A stretch of DNA of 28,960 nt from a virus, in the IMG/VR virus record IMGVR_UViG_3300024344_000095, positions 1-28,960 of that record, one strand, 5' to 3'. Under the pieces are notes generated by a model. The model was not told where the DNA came from. It searched no databases and saw only the letters and a list, made by a program, of their open reading frames with translations. Positions within the stretch are counted from its first letter, which is position 1, and each line of letters begins with the position of its first letter. Shown here piece by piece: positions 8,770-28,909 of the stretch. The position numbers and the translations under genes were made by a program.

Positions 8770-9607
8770 TTTGCCATCCCCAAGCTTTTTTATTCACTTT
8801 ATTAATAAGTTTTTTTACATCTTCATCTAACATTTCTTTTATATCTTCTTCTAACAATAAAAATTTAACATTCATATTTAAAGCTAAGTCATCTAATATT
8901 TTAACAGCTTTTTTACTTGCATCTTTATCAAGTGCTATTCCTACCTTTTTATAGTTCTTTAACACATCTATATGAGTTTGTAAAAGGTTAGTTCCTAATA
9001 AAGCTATTCCAGTACAAAATTTAGATATAGTTAGTGCAGATACCACATCTTCCACTAGAATTGCTGTATCACTATTTCCATGTATAAATGGATACCCAGA
9101 ATTGCCGTATCTATACCATTTAGGTTTCTTGTTTTTGTATAAGGCTCTTCCAACTGCATCAACTAAATTATCATCTTTCTTAACTAAAAAAACTGCTCTA
9201 TGAGTATATCGGTCATATCTAATTATTTTCCCATAATCCATTAAATCATATTTTTGGATATAGTTTTTAAAATCTTTTAAACTTGGGTCTTTATATCCTA
9301 TTCTAGGGGGTAGTCTATCTTCCCAATGATTTCTATAGTAAAATATCTCTGGTTCTTTTTGCTTTTCTAACTCATTAAATAGTTTTTTAGATAATTCATT
9401 TCTAGTTCTACCTTTAATACTACAATCAGCATGAAAACAATTATAAATAGTCTGTGTACCATTATTTAAAGCAGAAAAAGTACTCTTGTTAAAACAAATA
9501 GGACAATCTATTCTAACACTTTCGTTAGTTTTTAAGTTTAGTTCTTTTAAAAAGTTTTGTAGCATACTCCCCTTTATGTTATTAGTTTGGATGTGTTTTA
9601 TACCCAC
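8756..9607 (-). CDS. DNA primase with zinc-binding and Toprim domains
   Basis: A 283-aa protein. Residues 35-62 carry a zinc-binding module of CHC2 type (CPIC and CFHADC; C35, C38, C57, C62). Residues 182-232 form a Toprim domain with AILVEDVVSA (E186) and GIALDKDAS (D227, D229). It would lay RNA primers for the lagging strand and is followed by the helicase, which it overlaps. The longest frame starts GTG at 9607-9605 without a ribosome site. ATG at 9565-9563 (Met15) lies just after AAAGGGGAG and is a reasonable alternative that keeps the zinc module. It is the first gene of the leftward operon, so the 5' leader reaches to about 9770. Confidence 0.85.
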   Translation of the reverse strand: MGIKHIQTNNIKGSMLQNFLKELNLKTNESVRIDCPICFNKSTFSALNNGTQTIYNCFHADCSIKGRTRNELSKKLFNELEKQKEPEIFYYRNHWEDRLPPRIGYKDPSLKDFKNYIQKYDLMDYGKIIRYDRYTHRAVFLVKKDDNLVDAVGRALYKNKKPKWYRYGNSGYPFIHGNSDTAILVEDVVSALTISKFCTGIALLGTNLLQTHIDVLKNYKKVGIALDKDASKKAVKILDDLALNMNVKFLLLEEDIKEMLDEDVKKLINKVNKKAWGWQNDTY

Positions 9608-9765
9608 GATGTCAATTCATCGGGACAGGAACTTAATTATTGACCCATATCCTGTAGTGTCTCATTCGATACTCACTCTCTTTGTCATTTTTGTTTCCAA
9701 AAACTTAGGACAATACTCATAGCCTTCGAGACTTTTCATTGGTAGTCAACCAAACTAATATAACC

Positions 9766-9793
9766 CTTCTAAACTACTAAAAACTAATGTCAA
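9766..9793 (-). promoter_or_regulatory. Possible leftward promoter of the replication operon
   Basis: On the minus strand TTGACA (9793-9788) is a perfect -35 box. The best hexamer at a 16-nt spacing is TAGAAG (9771-9766), only 4 of 6 matches to TATAAT. The 16-nt spacing equals that of the two strong promoters at 16.6 kb. Its position directly upstream of the primase gene, head to head with a rightward candidate across an A/T-run, supports it. The -10 box is weak, so confidence is low to moderate. Confidence 0.4.
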
Positions 9794-9815
9794 TAAAAAA
9801 AAAATAATTTTTTAG

Positions 9816-9843
9816 TTGACTTTTAAATTTAAAGGAGTACAAG
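9816..9843 (+). promoter_or_regulatory. Possible rightward promoter for the early + strand genes
   Basis: TTGACT (9816-9821), a 16-nt spacer and TACAAG (9838-9843, 4 of 6 matches). It lies 48 nt before the first rightward gene, which has a good AAGGAG site. It is back to back with the leftward candidate, with 22 nt of nearly pure A/T between the two -35 boxes. The leader also has a short GGGG/CCCC hairpin at about 9842-9855. The -10 match is weak. Confidence 0.35.
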
Positions 9844-9891
9844 GGGAACACCCCCACTGCGGGACACTTTATATCATTTAAGGAGTAAACT

Positions 9892-10791: not shown

Positions 10792-11155
10792 TAAATTACT
10801 AAAAAACTTAAAAGAATTAGTTAAGCTACCAAAAAATGTCACTATTGGGGCTTATAAAGTAGAACTTGTCAGAATACCACATGATGTCGCTTATGAGAGT
10901 TCTGATTATCAAGGTAGTTTTGTCAGCAAACCACCATTAAAAATTTATTTAGATGAACAAATAATTGATATGGGAGGTATGGATGCTGTTAACTTAGTGA
11001 TACATGAATTTTGTCATCTAGGTTTCTATCAGTATGGTATGAAAGATAAAGAAGAAGAACATATTGTTAATTCCTATGGAAATTTTTTAACAGAACTGTT
11101 AATGAGAAGTGAATTAAAGGAGTGGTTATTATGGCAAATAACAAAAAATGCATGA
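10781..11155 (+). CDS. HExxH zinc metallopeptidase-like protein
   Basis: A 124-aa protein when started at ATG 10781 (MSNNKLLKNL), which overlaps the upstream gene by 11 nt; a GTG at 10760 would add seven residues without a better ribosome site. The key segment is VIHEFCHLGFYQ, with H75, E76 and H79, the HExxH zincin motif, followed by KDKEEEHIVNSYGNFLTELL, in which a Glu (91-93) could be the third zinc ligand. Phage proteins of this layout are common and of unknown role; cleavage of a host regulator or processing of a phage protein are options. Two TGTCA motifs lie at its start and five further within or near it. Confidence 0.65.
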   Translation: MSNNKLLKNLKELVKLPKNVTIGAYKVELVRIPHDVAYESSDYQGSFVSKPPLKIYLDEQIIDMGGMDAVNLVIHEFCHLGFYQYGMKDKEEEHIVNSYGNFLTELLMRSELKEWLLWQITKNA

Positions 11156-11304
11156 GTTGTAATATTAAAGTACCTACCATAAAATACAAAGATACTAGAT
11201 GGTACTGTACTCTATGTTACATAAAAAAGTTTCATCCTGTGGATAACTTTGCTAAGATTTTATTGACAGCAAAAAACAAAGCATATAAAAGGGATAGTGT
11301 TTAG
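11131..11304 (+). CDS. 57-aa zinc-ribbon protein
   Basis: The ATG at 11131 has AAAGGAG 8 nt upstream and starts inside the preceding gene (25-nt overlap). The product has two CxxC pairs (C7, C10 and C26, C29; CMSC and CTLC) separated by a short beta-like stretch with DTRWY, i.e. a small zinc ribbon, followed by a basic helix (NFAKILLTAKNKAYKRDS). Such proteins bind nucleic acid or RNA polymerase; the partner is unknown. It is the last gene before the structured gap. Confidence 0.6.
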   Translation: MANNKKCMSCNIKVPTIKYKDTRWYCTLCYIKKFHPVDNFAKILLTAKNKAYKRDSV

Positions 11305-11745
11305 TGGAGAGAACCCAAGCCTTAGGTTGATAAAGCTCTTATAGGTATATAAAAATGGGACATACAAGCTCTACTAGACATCTTGGGTGGTTGTTCTAGA
11401 CAACAATAAAAACTAGAAAAGCCTGTTTAGGAGTGGGCATGGTAGTCATATCTGTAAGTCCTTTTCCTAAATATGTTAGTTATCTAATCGTTTCGCTCGA
11501 TTTAGCTACGAGCCATTACCTTTAGATAGCAAAACAAGATAAGCCAATAAACGGAGCTATCTTGGTAGGTACGATAACATTCACTAGTGTAGAAACTTTA
11601 GCTTTCTAGTTGTCGTACCTACACTAAGTTTACGCTAGTATCAAACCTGTCGGCGATTGACTTGTAAGTGGTTGGCTGTAGAAAGTGGTTCTAGATAGAT
11701 TCCAGAAACCCTTTGGTACTAGCGTAAATTTATGTGAGGGGAGAA
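11305..11745 (+). ncRNA. Candidate large structured non-coding RNA or structured leader
   Basis: This 440-nt gap has no sizeable coding frame but is full of inverted repeats. Perfect stems include ACCCAAG (11313-11319)/CTTGGGT (11382-11388), TTTAGGA (11426-11432)/TCCTAAA (11465-11471), AGATAGC (11524-11530)/GCTATCT (11556-11562), GTAGGTACGA (11565-11574)/TCGTACCTAC (11613-11622), and TTTACGCTAGTA (11629-11640)/TACTAGCGTAAA (11717-11728), the last extendable to 15 pairs with one G-U. The last stem closes a 76-nt loop with its own GGTTCT/AGAAACC hairpin. G+C is above that of the flanking genes. This is the layout of a structured RNA rather than of a promoter or terminator. The family was not recognised. 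Strand is assumed from the flanking genes. Confidence 0.6.
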
Positions 11746-11751
11746 TAAAAA

Positions 11752-12078
11752 ATGTCAGCAAATTGGATACTAATAGATGCAGATTTGTCATACTATCACA
11801 GCACAAAATTTAGAGCGGGTGGTCGGCTATACTTTTTAAAAACGGGTAGAAAAAATGTCAGCATTTATGACTTAGCCTTACGAAAAAATGTCAGCTTAAA
11901 AATGTCAGCTTTACCACAATTCTTTTATACACCAGAAAATTTTACTCTTACAACACATTTTTTTCCACCTAAAACTTGGAAAAGTATTTTAAAAGATTTT
12001 AGGGGATATACACAAAAAACAAAGAATGAAAAAGATATATTAGATACACTAAAAACAAAAATAAAGTTGACTAAATAA
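11752..12078 (+). CDS. Hypothetical protein whose gene holds five TGTCA motifs
   Basis: A 108-aa protein (MSANWILIDADLSYYH at the N-terminus) with a GGGGAG ribosome site 8 nt before ATG. No domain recognised; it is basic toward the C-terminus. The gene contains TGTCA at 11753, 11786, 11856, 11889 and 11903, four of them as TGTCAGC. These are read in two different frames (Met-Ser-Ala and Asn-Val-Ser), so the DNA word rather than the protein appears to be conserved. It follows the structured gap directly, so the gap RNA may act as its leader. Confidence 0.5.
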   Translation: MSANWILIDADLSYYHSTKFRAGGRLYFLKTGRKNVSIYDLALRKNVSLKMSALPQFFYTPENFTLTTHFFPPKTWKSILKDFRGYTQKTKNEKDILDTLKTKIKLTK

Positions 12079-12123: not shown

Positions 12124-12531
12124 ATGATAATAGAAACAGATAAAACCATACCAGAAGCAATTCAGAAAATAGTTGGTACTAATGGTATATTTCATATTCG
12201 TTGGAGAAAAAAAGATAGACGACAATTTGTTGATAATGAGTTTGGGTTTCCTGTAATAAATCCCGATTATGATAAAAACACTATTTTACGAACTGGCAAT
12301 TTTAGGTTGGGTGTAGTAAAAAATCTTAAAGGTGGTAAAAGGAATACAGACCCTAACGAATATTTAATTGCTTTTGATATGAGCAAAAAAGGTTATAGAA
12401 ATATTTATTATAATACGATAGAAAGAATTACAGTAAATAAACAAACTTTTTTTGTTAAGGTAGTTGATACTAAACATTATAGATTTGCTTTAATAGATAG
12501 TACGAATAAAAAAGATATGGAGAATATATGA
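12124..12531 (+). CDS. SH3-like beta-barrel phage protein (tentative)
   Basis: A 135-aa protein with AAGGGAG 6 nt before its ATG. After a helical N-terminus, it has FHIRWRKKDRR, then TGNFRLGVVKNLKGG, EYLIAFDMSKKGYRNI and YNTIERITVN. This order of strands and the Arg/Gly turn pattern match phage proteins often annotated as SH3 beta-barrel fold proteins; they are short early proteins of unknown role. The gene overlaps the next by 4 nt (ATGA). Confidence 0.45.
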   Translation: MIIETDKTIPEAIQKIVGTNGIFHIRWRKKDRRQFVDNEFGFPVINPDYDKNTILRTGNFRLGVVKNLKGGKRNTDPNEYLIAFDMSKKGYRNIYYNTIERITVNKQTFFVKVVDTKHYRFALIDSTNKKDMENI

Positions 12532-12875
12532 AAATACAAGTTAAAGAAGAACATATTAAAAAAGGACGGCCAGAAAATTGTGAGAATTGTGCTCTTGCTT
12601 TAGCTGTAAAAGATAGTTTAAAAGCTGATAGTGTTAGTGTTACTACAGATTGTGACGACAATATTGAAATTTCTGCATGGTTTGACAAGTTAGGTTATAA
12701 GAAACAAAAAGATATAATAATAATGGATAGTGACAGAATACAAGTTAACCATTTTGTTGAAGCTTTTGATAGTTTTTATGATTGGGACGGAAATCAAGCT
12801 GTTAATTTGTTAAAAGAAAACAGTGTTAAGCCTTTTGAATTTGATATAGAATATAACAATCCTTTTACAATATGA
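12528..12875 (+). CDS. Hypothetical protein with N-terminal CxxC
   Basis: A 115-aa protein starting MKIQVKEEHIKKGRPENCENCALALAV. The CENC pair followed by a hydrophobic helix, then the strand SVSVTTDCDDNIEIS, recurs in small phage proteins with no known role. The C-terminal half is acidic and aromatic (FDSFYDWDG). It overlaps both neighbours by 4 nt, so it is translated together with the SH3-like and GP88-like genes. Confidence 0.45.
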   Translation: MKIQVKEEHIKKGRPENCENCALALAVKDSLKADSVSVTTDCDDNIEISAWFDKLGYKKQKDIIIMDSDRIQVNHFVEAFDSFYDWDGNQAVNLLKENSVKPFEFDIEYNNPFTI

Positions 12876-13591
12876 TTAAAGGAAATAAAGAATTACGGAG
12901 ATACACTACTATTTATCCTAAGACAGTAACTACTATAAATTCTTGGAATGATTATAAAAATTATGGTCATAAATTACTTAAACAATCTAATAACAGTAAA
13001 TTAGGTAAGGTGGTTGGTAAGGGGGCTTTTGTTAAAAAGCCTCTCTATTCTTTAAGTTTAGTCGAGCGGGAAATGGGTTGTCCTAAAAGTTGTCATCATT
13101 GGGATAGTTGCTACGGCAATAATATGCCTTTTGCTCATAGGTTTAGAACTGATAAAACCATAGTATTTACAGAAATTTTACGAGATGAATTATTTAATCT
13201 ACACAAAAAACATAAATTTGGTATTCATATAAGACTTCATGTATTAGGAGATTTTTTTAGTAGAGATTACATAAAATTCTGGAATATTATATTAATGCTA
13301 TACCCTAAAATAAGTATTTATGGTTATACAGCCCATAGTCCAAAAAGTATGTTAGGTAAACAAATAAAAAATGCCATCAATAAAATTGGTTTTGATAGAT
13401 TTGCTATTAGGTTTTCAAATTCAGATGTAGAATTGTCAGCGAATAGCACGGAGTATAAACCTAGACTATTAGAAAATGTCAGCTTAAATCCTATTGTTTG
13501 CCCCGAGCAATTAGACAAGGTGGCAAACTGTGTTTCCTGTGGTCTTTGTTGGAATTCCAATGCAAAACAAATTTTATTTAAAACACATTAG
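12872..13591 (+). CDS. GP88-like cysteine-rich phage protein
   Basis: A 239-aa protein with two cysteine regions: MGCPKSCHHWDSCYGNNMPFAHRF (about residues 68-91) and CPEQLDKVANCVSCGLCW near the end. Between them is HIRLHVLGDFFSRDYIKFW and IYGYTAHS. This arrangement resembles the GP88 family of phage and plasmid proteins, which I recall as having the HVxGDF and YGYT motifs and a closing C-rich CxxCxxCW plus H. The cysteines may bind an iron-sulfur cluster or zinc; no activity is established. It has TGTCA at 13091, 13434 and 13477. It overlaps the previous gene by 4 nt. Confidence 0.6.
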   Translation: MIKGNKELRRYTTIYPKTVTTINSWNDYKNYGHKLLKQSNNSKLGKVVGKGAFVKKPLYSLSLVEREMGCPKSCHHWDSCYGNNMPFAHRFRTDKTIVFTEILRDELFNLHKKHKFGIHIRLHVLGDFFSRDYIKFWNIILMLYPKISIYGYTAHSPKSMLGKQIKNAINKIGFDRFAIRFSNSDVELSANSTEYKPRLLENVSLNPIVCPEQLDKVANCVSCGLCWNSNAKQILFKTH

Positions 13592-15846: not shown

Positions 15847-15849
15847 TTT

Positions 15850-15924
15850 ATGCTTAGTGATTTAATCTTATTTATGCTTATAATCTGTGTAGGTTGTTTT
15901 ATACTTGCATTTTATTGGAAATAG
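15850..15924 (+). CDS. 24-aa single-span membrane peptide
   Basis: ATG 15850 to TAG 15924 encodes MLSDLILFMLIICVGCFILA followed by FYWK: a single hydrophobic helix with one Asp near the start and Trp-Lys at the end. GGAGG lies 10 nt upstream. It corresponds in size, DLIL start and position (just before a GCCCCGC terminator) to the 25-aa peptide at 14897-14974. Role unknown. Confidence 0.5.
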   Translation: MLSDLILFMLIICVGCFILAFYWK

Positions 15925-15959
15925 ATATTAATTAGATATTTCATTAATTCCTTCTAATT

Positions 15960-16005
15960 AGCCCCGCAAATTGAGAACTGGGAGAACTCAAGCGGGGCTT
16001 TTTTT
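15960..16005 (+). terminator. Rho-independent terminator
   Basis: AGCCCCGC (15960-15967) pairs with GCGGGGCT (15992-15999), with an inner TTGAG/CTCAA stem (15971-15975 and 15987-15991), followed by seven T up to 16005. It closes the 15018-15924 unit. The outer stem is nearly the same as that of the terminator at 14989, with a different loop. Confidence 0.88.
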
Positions 16006-16594
16006 ATTTCGGGTATTATTGCGGATGCATCCAGATTTATTGAGGGTTTAGTCCTAGTTTACACTTAGCTTCAATTAGTGGCTTATGTGTTAAAATCTAA
16101 GGGTTTTTAGGGTGCTTATTGTTCGCAAATGGGCTAGGGAATAAGCCTAGAATTAAATCGAAACTAGTTAAAGTTGTCAGCCTAGTTTTGTATGCGGGTG
16201 TACCCGAAAAGCCCCTTAAATAAAAAAGGGAAATACCCAGTCATTCTATTAGATTATATCTAGATTAAATTTAGAGTTCATTCTAGGTTACCCCCAGTTC
16301 CCCCGACTACCTTGATTTATTAGTTTCGATAACTGGGATTATCACTAATAGTAACTGTAATTATCGAAAGTAATAGTTCATTATAGGTCAGTACCCTTTA
16401 TTGTAAAAAATGGCGGAATATATATATTTTTGGGGGTACTATAGGGTCACGGGGGGTGGTATGGTAAGGGTTATACAAAGTGAATAGAATTTTATAGAAA
16501 TTACCCTGTTAACTAGGAATCGCTTGCCCCTACGGTACCCTTACATATATATCTATATAATAGATGTAAGCCCCCGGGTAAGGGGGTATCTCCT
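16006..16594. other. Hairpin-rich non-coding control region
   Basis: About 590 nt without a supported gene on either strand. It contains the palindrome GGATGCATCC (16023-16032), a CTAGG/CCTAG hairpin (16134-16150), an AAACTAG/CTAGTTT stem (16161-16188) with a TGTCAGC in its loop, the large stem-loop at 16318-16375, a G-rich run on the + strand (GGGGG, GGG, GGGGGG and GGG between 16432 and 16470) that could form a quadruplex, a TTACAT/ATGTAA stem (16541-16569), and a CCCCC/GGGGG hairpin (16571-16586). The layout fits a regulatory region or replication origin between early and late genes; that function is inferred. Confidence 0.5.
16318..16375. repeat. 15-bp inverted repeat with 28-nt loop
   Basis: TATTAGTTTCGATAA (16318-16332) pairs with TTATCGAAAGTAATA (16361-16375) with a single mismatch. 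Nine central pairs (TTTCGATAA/TTATCGAAA) are perfect. There is no T-run on either side, so it is not a terminator. It may be an operator, an origin element or part of the leftward transcript from the promoter at 16595-16622. Confidence 0.65.
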
Positions 16595-16622
16595 ATTATA
16601 CACCTGTGTGCGTATTTGTCAA
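16595..16622 (-). promoter_or_regulatory. Consensus sigma70 promoter, leftward
   Basis: On the minus strand TTGACA (16622-16617), 16-nt spacer, TATAAT (16600-16595): both hexamers are perfect. It would fire leftward at about 16588 into a non-coding region whose neighbouring genes all point right, so it probably makes an antisense or structural RNA. The RNA would begin with a CCCCC/GGGGG hairpin followed by a TTACAT/ATGTAA hairpin. Confidence 0.8.
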
Positions 16623-16652
16623 GTAAAAAATTATTTTTATTTCAGAATTAAC

Positions 16653-16680
16653 TTGACAACTAGGAGATATCGTGTATAAT
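16653..16680 (+). promoter_or_regulatory. Consensus sigma70 promoter for the late operon, rightward
   Basis: TTGACA (16653-16658), 16-nt spacer, TATAAT (16675-16680): both hexamers are perfect. The start would be near 16687, directly before a hairpin GGTGAGTA/TACTCCACC (16688-16717, one bulge) that may protect the 5' end. It is 111 nt upstream of the first head gene and is divergent from the leftward promoter, the two -35 boxes being 30 nt apart. Confidence 0.85.
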
Positions 16681-16746
16681 ATAATAAGGTGAGTACAAAA
16701 CAAGCACATACTCCACCACTTTAATTAGTAAACACAAAAGGGAGAT

Positions 16747-16794
16747 ATGGTGCAGTCTGTACTAAGTAACACCTTGGGGGATAACATAAAATGA
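16747..16794 (+). CDS. Possible 15-aa leader peptide
   Basis: ATG 16747 follows AAAGGGAGAT and encodes MVQSVLSNTLGDNIK, ending TGA at 16792-16794. The stop overlaps the ATG of the next gene as ATGA. The gene downstream has only a distant GGGGG of its own, so translation of this peptide could deliver ribosomes to it. The spacing of GGGAG to the ATG is short (2 nt), so the peptide is uncertain. Confidence 0.35.
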   Translation: MVQSVLSNTLGDNIK

Positions 16795-27532: not shown

Positions 27533-28441
27533 ATGGCGATTACAGCATCTGCCGGTTATGACAATTTACCTTCGGGCAATTGGTTACCGAGCATTTACTC
27601 GCAGAAAGTTCTCAAATATTTCCGTAGAAGCTCTGTTGTTGAGGGTATCACTAACACTGATTATGCGGGAGAAATTGAGAATTACGGCGATACCGTTAGA
27701 ATTATAAAAGAACCAACAATTTCAGTTAGTTCTTATACGAAAGGTTCTCAAACTAATCTACAAAATCTTGCAGATGACCAAACTACTCTTGTAGTTGACA
27801 CTGCAAATTATTTTGCTTTCAAAGTAGATGATATTGAAGAAAGACAATCTCATGTAAACTGGGAATCTCTAGCTACTTCTTCTGGAGCTTATGCTCTTAA
27901 AAGAAAGTATGATAGAGATGTTCTTGAAGCTATTTCTACTACTTCTGGAATCAATGCAGGTTCAGCAGTAACTGCTAACACAGGTGACTTAGCTCACAGT
28001 GTTATTGCAGAATCTGCTAGACTTCTTGATGACAATGAAGTACCGGAAGAAAATAGATGGTTTGTAGCACCTCCGATTTTTTACGAGCAATTAGGTGCAG
28101 CCGGCTCAAAAGTTATGGATATGTCCGTAATGGGTAGCAGTGGCGAATCCCCGCTTCGTAATGGATTGGTATCAGAAGTTACAATTGCAGGTATGAAATT
28201 GTACAAATCAACAGCGTTAAATAGGTCTGGAACAGATATTATTACAGTATCTGGTACATCTAATGCATATTTTTGCATGGGTGGACATATGTCTGCGGCT
28301 GCAACAGCTTCGCATATTGCGAAAACTGAAGTAGTAAGAGACCCAGATTCTTTTTCTGACGTTGTTAGAGGATTGCACGTTTATGGTAGCAAAGTTCTTA
28401 GAGCTGAAGCTATTACTAGAACTGCAGTTGTCTTAACATAA
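27533..28441 (+). CDS. Major capsid protein
   Basis: A 302-aa protein starting MAITASAGYDNLPSGNWLPSIYS, then QKVLKYFRRSSVVEGITNTDY, GDTVRIIKEPTISVSSYTKG and YFAFKVDDIEERQSHVNWES, patterns of HK97-fold coat proteins of podovirus type. Conserved later parts include VPEENRWFVAPPIFYEQLG and a beta-rich C-terminus. It forms the icosahedral head with the scaffold as assembly guide. TAGGAG lies before the ATG. Its codon use is slightly richer in C-ending codons (e.g. GAC, TTC) than its neighbours, as expected of a highly expressed gene. A short 24-nt spacer separates it from the scaffold gene. Confidence 0.88.
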   Translation: MAITASAGYDNLPSGNWLPSIYSQKVLKYFRRSSVVEGITNTDYAGEIENYGDTVRIIKEPTISVSSYTKGSQTNLQNLADDQTTLVVDTANYFAFKVDDIEERQSHVNWESLATSSGAYALKRKYDRDVLEAISTTSGINAGSAVTANTGDLAHSVIAESARLLDDNEVPEENRWFVAPPIFYEQLGAAGSKVMDMSVMGSSGESPLRNGLVSEVTIAGMKLYKSTALNRSGTDIITVSGTSNAYFCMGGHMSAAATASHIAKTEVVRDPDSFSDVVRGLHVYGSKVLRAEAITRTAVVLT

Positions 28442-28453
28442 TAGGAGGAATGA

Positions 28454-28909
28454 ATGGCAACAGTTGATAAAACTACTGGTGGAACAGCAGGACATCCTTC
28501 TACCAGAAGAAAACCATATTACGTTGAAAATACAGTTGATAACTCATTGTTTGACCCGGCAGCAGCAGACATTATACAATGTTTAAATGTTCCGGCAGAA
28601 ACATTAGTTATGGCGGCAGGATTAGAAGTTTTAACAGCTTCTTCTACTTCCGTAACTTTTGACTTAGGTATTACAGGTTCAACAGCAGGTCACCATGACC
28701 CTGACTGTTGGGTTGATGCCTTTGACGCAACTGGTACAGGTCATGCCCCAGTCGATGCTACAGATGCAGCAGCAATGCTTATCTGTAAAGCGGCTGATAC
28801 TATTGATATTTTAACTGCAGGTGCACAAGACACCGCAGGTAAAGTTCGAGTATGGGCAGTACTTTGTGATATTAGTGGTTCAGATGAAACTGCTTCTAAC
28901 TCATCGTAA
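28454..28909 (+). CDS. Putative head decoration or capsid-associated protein
   Basis: A 151-aa, Ala/Thr/Asp-rich, beta-like protein (VTFDLGITGSTAGHHD, AAAMLICKAADTIDILTAGAQD) with a proline/arginine-rich N-terminus (HPSTRRKPYYVENTVD). AGGAGG lies 6 nt before the ATG. It follows the major capsid gene by 12 nt and is ended by a strong hairpin, so it is expressed at a similar level, which fits a decoration/stabilisation protein. No family is recognised with confidence. Confidence 0.6.
   Translation: MATVDKTTGGTAGHPSTRRKPYYVENTVDNSLFDPAAADIIQCLNVPAETLVMAAGLEVLTASSTSVTFDLGITGSTAGHHDPDCWVDAFDATGTGHAPVDATDAAAMLICKAADTIDILTAGAQDTAGKVRVWAVLCDISGSDETASNSS

Follow-up and report, generated by a model that had tools for sequence, protein, structure and literature searches.

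Probable arrays of exchangeable structured-RNA cassettes in marine viruses related to HMO-2011-type phages

The locus and its folding signal

The window, that is, the whole stretch of DNA analysed here, is a virus record of 28,960 bases (IMGVR_UViG_3300024344_000095). The nearest public-phage relatives of its terminase are HMO-2011-type marine phages, e.g. Pelagibacter phage HTVC115P (52.7% identity), and similarity of the terminase, portal and head-tail adaptor suggests a podophage affinity of the virus. Genes for a family A DNA polymerase, a DnaB-like helicase and a Toprim primase lie on the − strand. The region of interest is a gap between two + strand ORFs (Table 1), neither of which has a match in Pfam or PADLOC. 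The word AAAATGTCAGC occurs five times in the window, at 11749-11909 and 13473-13483, where 0.01 copies are expected; four of the five form the start of, or lie within, the downstream ORF, such copies are kept in relatives, and the word could be a DNA- or RNA-binding site.

On the + strand, positions 11305-11745 fold with a minimum free energy (MFE) of −132.8 kcal/mol (z −4.69), and none of 100 dinucleotide shuffles was as low; the − strand has z −3.16, also with 0 of 100 shuffles as low. Among 64 segments of 440 nt, folded on each strand with a base-pair span of at most 150, the gap has the lowest z on both, −7.84 on the + strand (next −6.13) and −6.34 on the − strand (next −4.54), values that are rough with 12 shuffles each. 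The preliminary description of this DNA, which called the gap strongly structured, is borne out in this respect. Its impression of unusually dense long perfect stems holds in part: the gap contains one perfect Watson-Crick helix of 10 bp (11565-11622) and another of 12 bp (11629-11728), so that two of the seven stems of at least 10 bp crowd into 1.5% of the window, and the energy is unusual; the window-wide count of seven is within the range of three whole-window shuffles (7, 4 and 3). Elsewhere in the window, 28265-28704 on the + strand has the second lowest + strand z (−6.13, 12 shuffles), though it is mostly coding, and another region with few genes, about 940 nt long (15847-16790), has a strong GC-rich hairpin with a T run near 15960-16005, further inverted repeats and − strand folding z of −3.13 and −3.61 (12 shuffles, rough).

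No + strand ORF of at least 50 aa lies inside 11305-11751, one 58-aa TTG ORF overlaps the gap on the − strand (11630-11806), and a terminator scan of the gap found none. The stems had been described as not explained by a sizeable coding frame, terminator or promoter; the first two points stand, and the third is put in question by a TTGAC box that precedes the first stem, although the promoter scan of the window, which found no excess, did not list it. The box stands 33-35 nt 5′ of the first stem in all 15 site-1 arrays examined (L083 and L093 were left out of this count; site 1 is the position of the window's gap). The putative promoter has a short, 15-nt spacer and overlaps the end of the upstream ORF, and thus coding conservation may contribute to the recurrence of the box. 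The left border also moves from 11305 to 11297, because the first stem starts within the last codons of this ORF; with the corrected start, 11297-11736 has z −4.94.

Most likely, 11297-11735 is a real folded RNA that consists of individual hairpin and pseudoknot units set one after another, and single cassettes each fold better than their own shuffles (z −2.2 to −5.4). The 5′ order is fixed at site 1: the TTGAC box, P1 with its insert V1, which is unlike between phages, then TTGGGTGG, the H-type pseudoknot PK and the hairpin HP. PK is present in all 16 site-1 arrays, its S2 occurring as TCTAG/CTAGA, TCTCG/CGAGA and TCTCA/TGAGA, with one mismatch in the first copy of L097; a nested-only MFE is unable to show it. 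After HP, the set of units varies by phage (V3a, V3b or others, M4, M5, M6 and more). In L126 and in six of the remaining site-1 arrays, V3b takes the place of V3a, and the terminal loop of V3a contains the palindrome TAGCTA, a possible kissing loop. Since an AGGGGAG resembling a ribosome-binding site follows, the array can be continuous with the downstream ORF's mRNA.

Table 1. Coordinates of the array, its flanks and the primase-leader cassette in the window
Feature	Position	Strand	Remarks
Upstream flank, short Cys-rich ORF	11122-11304	+	
Putative promoter	11263-11289	+	TTGACA 11263-11268, 15 nt, TATAAA 11284-11289; TTGAC box recurrent in site-1 arrays
Cassette P1/V1	11297-11381	+	closing stem P1, 11297-11304 with 11374-11381, around variable insert
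H-type pseudoknot PK	11390-11417	+	S1 11390-11394/11400-11404; S2 11395-11399/11413-11417; A-rich third loop
Conserved hairpin HP	11424-11473	+	GTGGGCATGGTAG loop strand; signature in 17 of 28 arrays; z −3.51
Cassette V3a	11479-11530	+	common to L082 and L089 only; z −3.88
Cassette M4	11535-11564	+	signature in 13 of 28 arrays including the window; stem pattern in 12; z −3.10
Cassette M5	11565-11622	+	GTAGGTACGATA stem, loop unique to the window phage; z −4.44
Cassette M6	11623-11735	+	long stem between TAAGTTTA and TAAATTTA; stem pattern in 6 arrays; z −5.41
Ribosome-binding-site-like AGGGGAG and spacer	11737-11751	+	next gene starts with ATG 11752
Downstream flank ORF	11752-12078	+	function unassigned
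Likely single cassette in primase leader	9580-9760	−	closed by TATTAGTTTGG/CCAAACTAATA; read from sequence

Relatives, covariation and exchange of units

A search with the HExxH-bearing protein encoded just 5′ of the gap found 33 loci. The 16 closest (L082-L097) have a homologous gap at the same place, and the 17 more distant (L098-L114) have no match to it. A motif search found the same RNA at a different place in one extra contig, L126, which is without the window's flanking genes, and one L126 unit as query led to eight further contigs (L189-L196), giving 26 contigs including the window, 16 of them same-site homologues and nine with related cassettes elsewhere. The array comparison covers 28 arrays, from related contigs that are not independent, and 40 unit signatures, leaving out L093 (a repeat of L092), L195 and L196 (repeats of L189), and L025 and L084 (contigs of L095 and L010). 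A 16-base core motif matched 24 stretches of viral contigs, 17 in arrays and seven in unrelated DNA; its 47 matches in genome contigs were taken as noise, because by our estimate the length of the DNA by itself would yield about 120 chance matches. With the gap, the core and three arrays as queries, distant blastn comparisons with a phage collection, aimed at cultured phages, returned chance-level matches only. A host origin was also considered, and when the L095 array was compared with 385 genomes from the class to which G008 belongs, a single 42-nt match at chance level was returned (E 3.9e-4 per genome).

Site 2 is the leader of the − strand primase gene, where the cassette number differs by phage: there are one or more in L085, L095, L010 and L097 and no recognisable one in L091, L092 and L096, and the likely cassette of the window folds weakly (z −1.13, obtained on 9600-9890, which truncates one arm). 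Site 3 is 5′ of a + strand primase gene and holds the arrays of L126, L190, L192, L193 and L194, each finishing in a terminator-like hairpin with T-rich DNA behind it. A fourth setting is that of L191, where the promoter match is 12/12. Strong sigma-70-like promoters head the arrays of L126, L194 and L189, and the first two of these arrays run from a TTGACA-17-TATAGT promoter to a hairpin-plus-T-run terminator; the terminator scan omitted the one of L126, the loop of which is longer than the scan allows. In most relatives with a site-1 array the downstream ORF likewise comes next, whereas in L126 it does not. In L090 (1210-2700) and L091 (8440-9500), an HNH-like gene, judged by eye, lies directly 3′ of the array and replaces the usual downstream gene.

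In 13 helices with 327 base-pair cells, distinct versions being counted once, 323 cells hold standard pairs, against 33-43% with the partners slid by 1-3 positions; this share is biased upward, because the helices were named from the sequences themselves, 12 of the 13 by patterns leaning towards pairing, and the related phages are not independent. Less biased are the double changes, found in 16 of 102 pairs (0-1 with slid partners), and the excess of G-U over A-C cells (31 to 3), which points to the + strand RNA, since A-C is how the G-U pairs of the other strand would look. P1 is paired in 56 of 56 cells (seven distinct versions from 15 arrays, without L097, which has a bulge in this stem), with six of its eight pairs changed on both sides, and the stems related to M5 carry at least five unlike loops, with five of 12 pairs changed on both sides. 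PK S1, the HP inner stem and PKb S2 are invariant and hence uninformative; HP has little covariation, as its sequence is almost fixed. A large structured RNA had been proposed earlier, with covariation among homologous gaps as its check, and the compensatory changes in related phages support a structured non-coding RNA, here on the + strand.

Between close relatives, L088 has an extra 93-nt hairpin unit compared with L087, with 1,199 of 1,199 aligned upstream bases identical and 99.6% identity downstream, and L086 has a 93-nt insertion compared with L085 (99.1% upstream, 99.4% downstream), the 3′-end units of this pair also being different. L096 and L087 differ by clean units of 75, 63 and 109 nt, M6 being the missing 109-nt unit. 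The ends of eight indels lie at hairpin edges, with fewer predicted pairs crossing them, more often than those of random same-array segments (single p 0.017 to 0.252, combined p 7e-5; independence is incomplete, three segments being from a single array), and two of the eight, 75 nt in L096 and 94 nt in L087, cut 9-11 predicted pairs. Since whole cassettes of 52 to 109 nt are gained and lost, there is no conserved reading frame through the gap; such a frame would have spoken against the RNA.

The turnover of cassettes is faster than the change in neighbouring genes, and half of the unit signatures (20 of 40, in the 28 arrays) are found at two or more kinds of genomic site. Unit c27, for instance, is shared by the primase leaders of L085 and L095 and the terminator-ended arrays of L126 and L194, and the same cassette can stand 5′ of unlike genes. 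In L189-L196, cassettes exist without the constant P1-PK-HP part. Several units are H-type pseudoknots, and the PKb type is recognised from sequence in L189-L193, L195, L196, L010 and L083. Few units are repeated, namely PK in L097, PKb in L193, PKc in L191 and V3c in L092, each twice; the PK copies of L097 are at about 8493 and 8555, and the doubling in L097 and L193 hints at unit duplication. Judging from these comparisons, we hold with high confidence the joint claim of structure, sense strand, unit-wise turnover and several sites.

The cultured phage HTVC115P has a 403-nt gap 5′ of its ssDNA-binding-protein gene, in which TGGT[TGGAGTAGT]ACCA is followed by AAACTACTC; compared with the PKb scheme, TGGC[TTGGGTAGT]GCCA ... 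AAACTACCC, the changes are compatible in both stems. It is likely that HTVC115P carries one pseudoknot related to PKb. With a loosened descriptor, HTVC115P was the sole match in a set of nine stretches, made up of the window plus eight pieces from seven public phage records, and shuffles gave one match in 60 rounds, a test that is not unbiased, as the descriptor was loosened after the pseudoknot had been seen; a stricter descriptor missed it. Because it was spotted by eye before the loosening, the pseudoknot is a lead and not a proof. The HTVC115P gap as a full array was rejected, its overall fold being not significant (z −1.25), and the single pseudoknot alone is claimed.

Known RNA families and systems compared

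The window and six array loci gave no match at gathering score to Rfam covariance models, including GOLLD, ROOL, IMES and group I and group II introns, and 11250-11800 searched to E 10 gave six unrelated matches, all below the gathering scores. The earlier statement that no family is recognised is therefore upheld, and IMES and the introns were rejected for want of an Rfam match. PK looks by eye like a preQ1-I riboswitch, an identity rejected on the same ground. GOLLD and ROOL are large, elaborate, pseudoknotted phage RNAs, GOLLD having a variable part (PMC12286853), and the arrays share this large, elaborate, pseudoknotted character and variability. A homo-oligomeric cage is a further mark of GOLLD and ROOL. 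These RNAs often lie near tRNA genes, whereas no tRNA gene was found in the window or in any of the 16 loci, and the arrays consist of exchangeable units that also exist without the core. The likeness to RNAs of GOLLD, ROOL or IMES type, drawn in the preliminary description, is thus not supported in the sense of a single RNA with a fixed architecture, and an array is preferred.

Type III antitoxin RNAs (ToxI, CptI) consist of several pseudoknots in succession, in some cases with a terminator behind them, and phage pseudo-ToxI copies, which defeat the RNase toxin, arise and change through expansion and recombination (PMC3475682, PMC5086642). The arrays appear similar in their H-type pseudoknots, with PK constant at site 1 and covarying in S2. 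They differ in that their units are mostly unlike one another instead of tandem repeats. No endoribonuclease toxin gene was found among nine proteins (PADLOC) or ten (Pfam), mostly array neighbours, of the window and L126. We accordingly place the arrays in none of GOLLD, ROOL and the type III antitoxins.

Integron gene cassettes are arrayed units behind one promoter that are gained, lost and shuffled, as the array units are; here the units are structured RNAs without reading frames, and no integrase or attC site was identified. The mRNA leader of T4 gene 32 contains a pseudoknot, and the one in HTVC115P also stands 5′ of a replication gene; the present arrays differ from this leader in having many units, in often ending at terminators and in being optional at the primase gene. 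No description of such arrays was found in the open-access literature covered, and the main text of a paper on HMO-2011-type phages has no wording on noncoding RNA or RNA structure (PMC9038755).

Possible functions of the arrays

We propose, at somewhat less than even confidence, that the best overall explanation is a promoter-proximal array of small structured-RNA cassettes on the + strand that act in trans. The constant 5′ part comprises the closing stem with its variable insert, the H-type pseudoknot and the conserved hairpin; at least two further hairpin or pseudoknot cassettes come after it, and these are gained, lost and exchanged whole among related marine phages and genomic sites. The array would be transcribed as one RNA, in which each cassette may work independently. 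As to the mode of action, our tentative suggestion is that the cassettes serve as decoys or mimic antitoxins and so engage RNA-binding proteins of the host, with ribonuclease toxins or other RNA-sensing host defences as candidate targets; the rapid exchange would then reflect an arms race, each phage holding the set its hosts demand. In favour of this mode are the compactness of the units, the H-type pseudoknots among them, a turnover faster than the change in neighbouring genes, and the precedent of phage PhiTE, which escapes ToxIN by an expanded pseudo-ToxI pseudoknot RNA (PMC3475682). Against it, the units are mostly non-repeated, unlike ToxI, and a ribosome-binding site closes the arrays of the window and the primase site. 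PADLOC and Pfam revealed no toxin or defence gene next to the array; ORF 12528-12875 has a weak match to the KwaB defence-protein model (PADLOC, E 6e-4) and nothing convincing in Pfam.

Phage anti-defence studies have mostly centred on proteins. It is conceivable, though we think it somewhat unlikely, that marine HMO-2011-like phages possess an RNA-only cassette system, in which mutually unlike, independently folding units recombine whole between phages and between sites and make up a combinatorial anti-defence RNA set behind phage promoters. If this is true, swappable small folded RNAs would add a new level to anti-defence in a widespread group of marine viruses, and the cassettes would be ready-made targets for finding RNA-binding defences in hard-to-study hosts; HTVC115P, being cultured, may permit tests. 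Even if the arrays are regulatory, they represent a new, large family of structured phage RNAs, with unit-by-unit evolution visible between near-identical genomes.

The main rival to the decoy proposal, which we regard as unlikely yet serious, is a cis-acting leader, in which cassettes between promoter and start codon control the stability or translation of the mRNA of ORF 11752 or of the primase, in the way that the leader pseudoknot acts on gene 32 of phage T4. The ribosome-binding site at the end of site-1 and site-2 arrays suits a leader function, as do the position of the likely related HTVC115P pseudoknot and the repression by T4 Ssb of its own mRNA (PMC535899). The arrays are, however, not always part of the transcript of one downstream gene: those of L126, L190 and L192-L194 end at terminators, the same cassette precedes unlike genes, and some primase leaders have no recognisable cassette. 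Less probable still is one large ornate RNA in the manner of GOLLD or ROOL, with a constant 5′ scaffold and an exchangeable hairpin periphery, perhaps forming an oligomer through loop contacts. The constant P1-PK-HP order in 16 of 16 site-1 arrays and the palindromic loop of V3a fit such an RNA, but array length and content vary freely, and the single RNA loses ground because units live without the core, as in L189-L196.

It is very improbable that the units are DNA-level elements, that is, mobile or recombination-site hairpins for which a single-stranded DNA form is relevant. Units are gained and lost whole, both strands fold, and TAAGTTTA stands at several junctions, as this would have it; the excess of G-U over A-C cells points instead to selection on the RNA of one strand, the pseudoknots and the promoters heading arrays also speak against it, and the proteins of the window that were scanned include no transposase or integrase. 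That base-biased intergenic DNA merely folds by chance deserves practically no credence, for while the G+C of the gap (0.388 vs 0.321 in the window) lowers the raw energy, the dinucleotide shuffles control for base bias, and the double changes in the covariation result already refute it.
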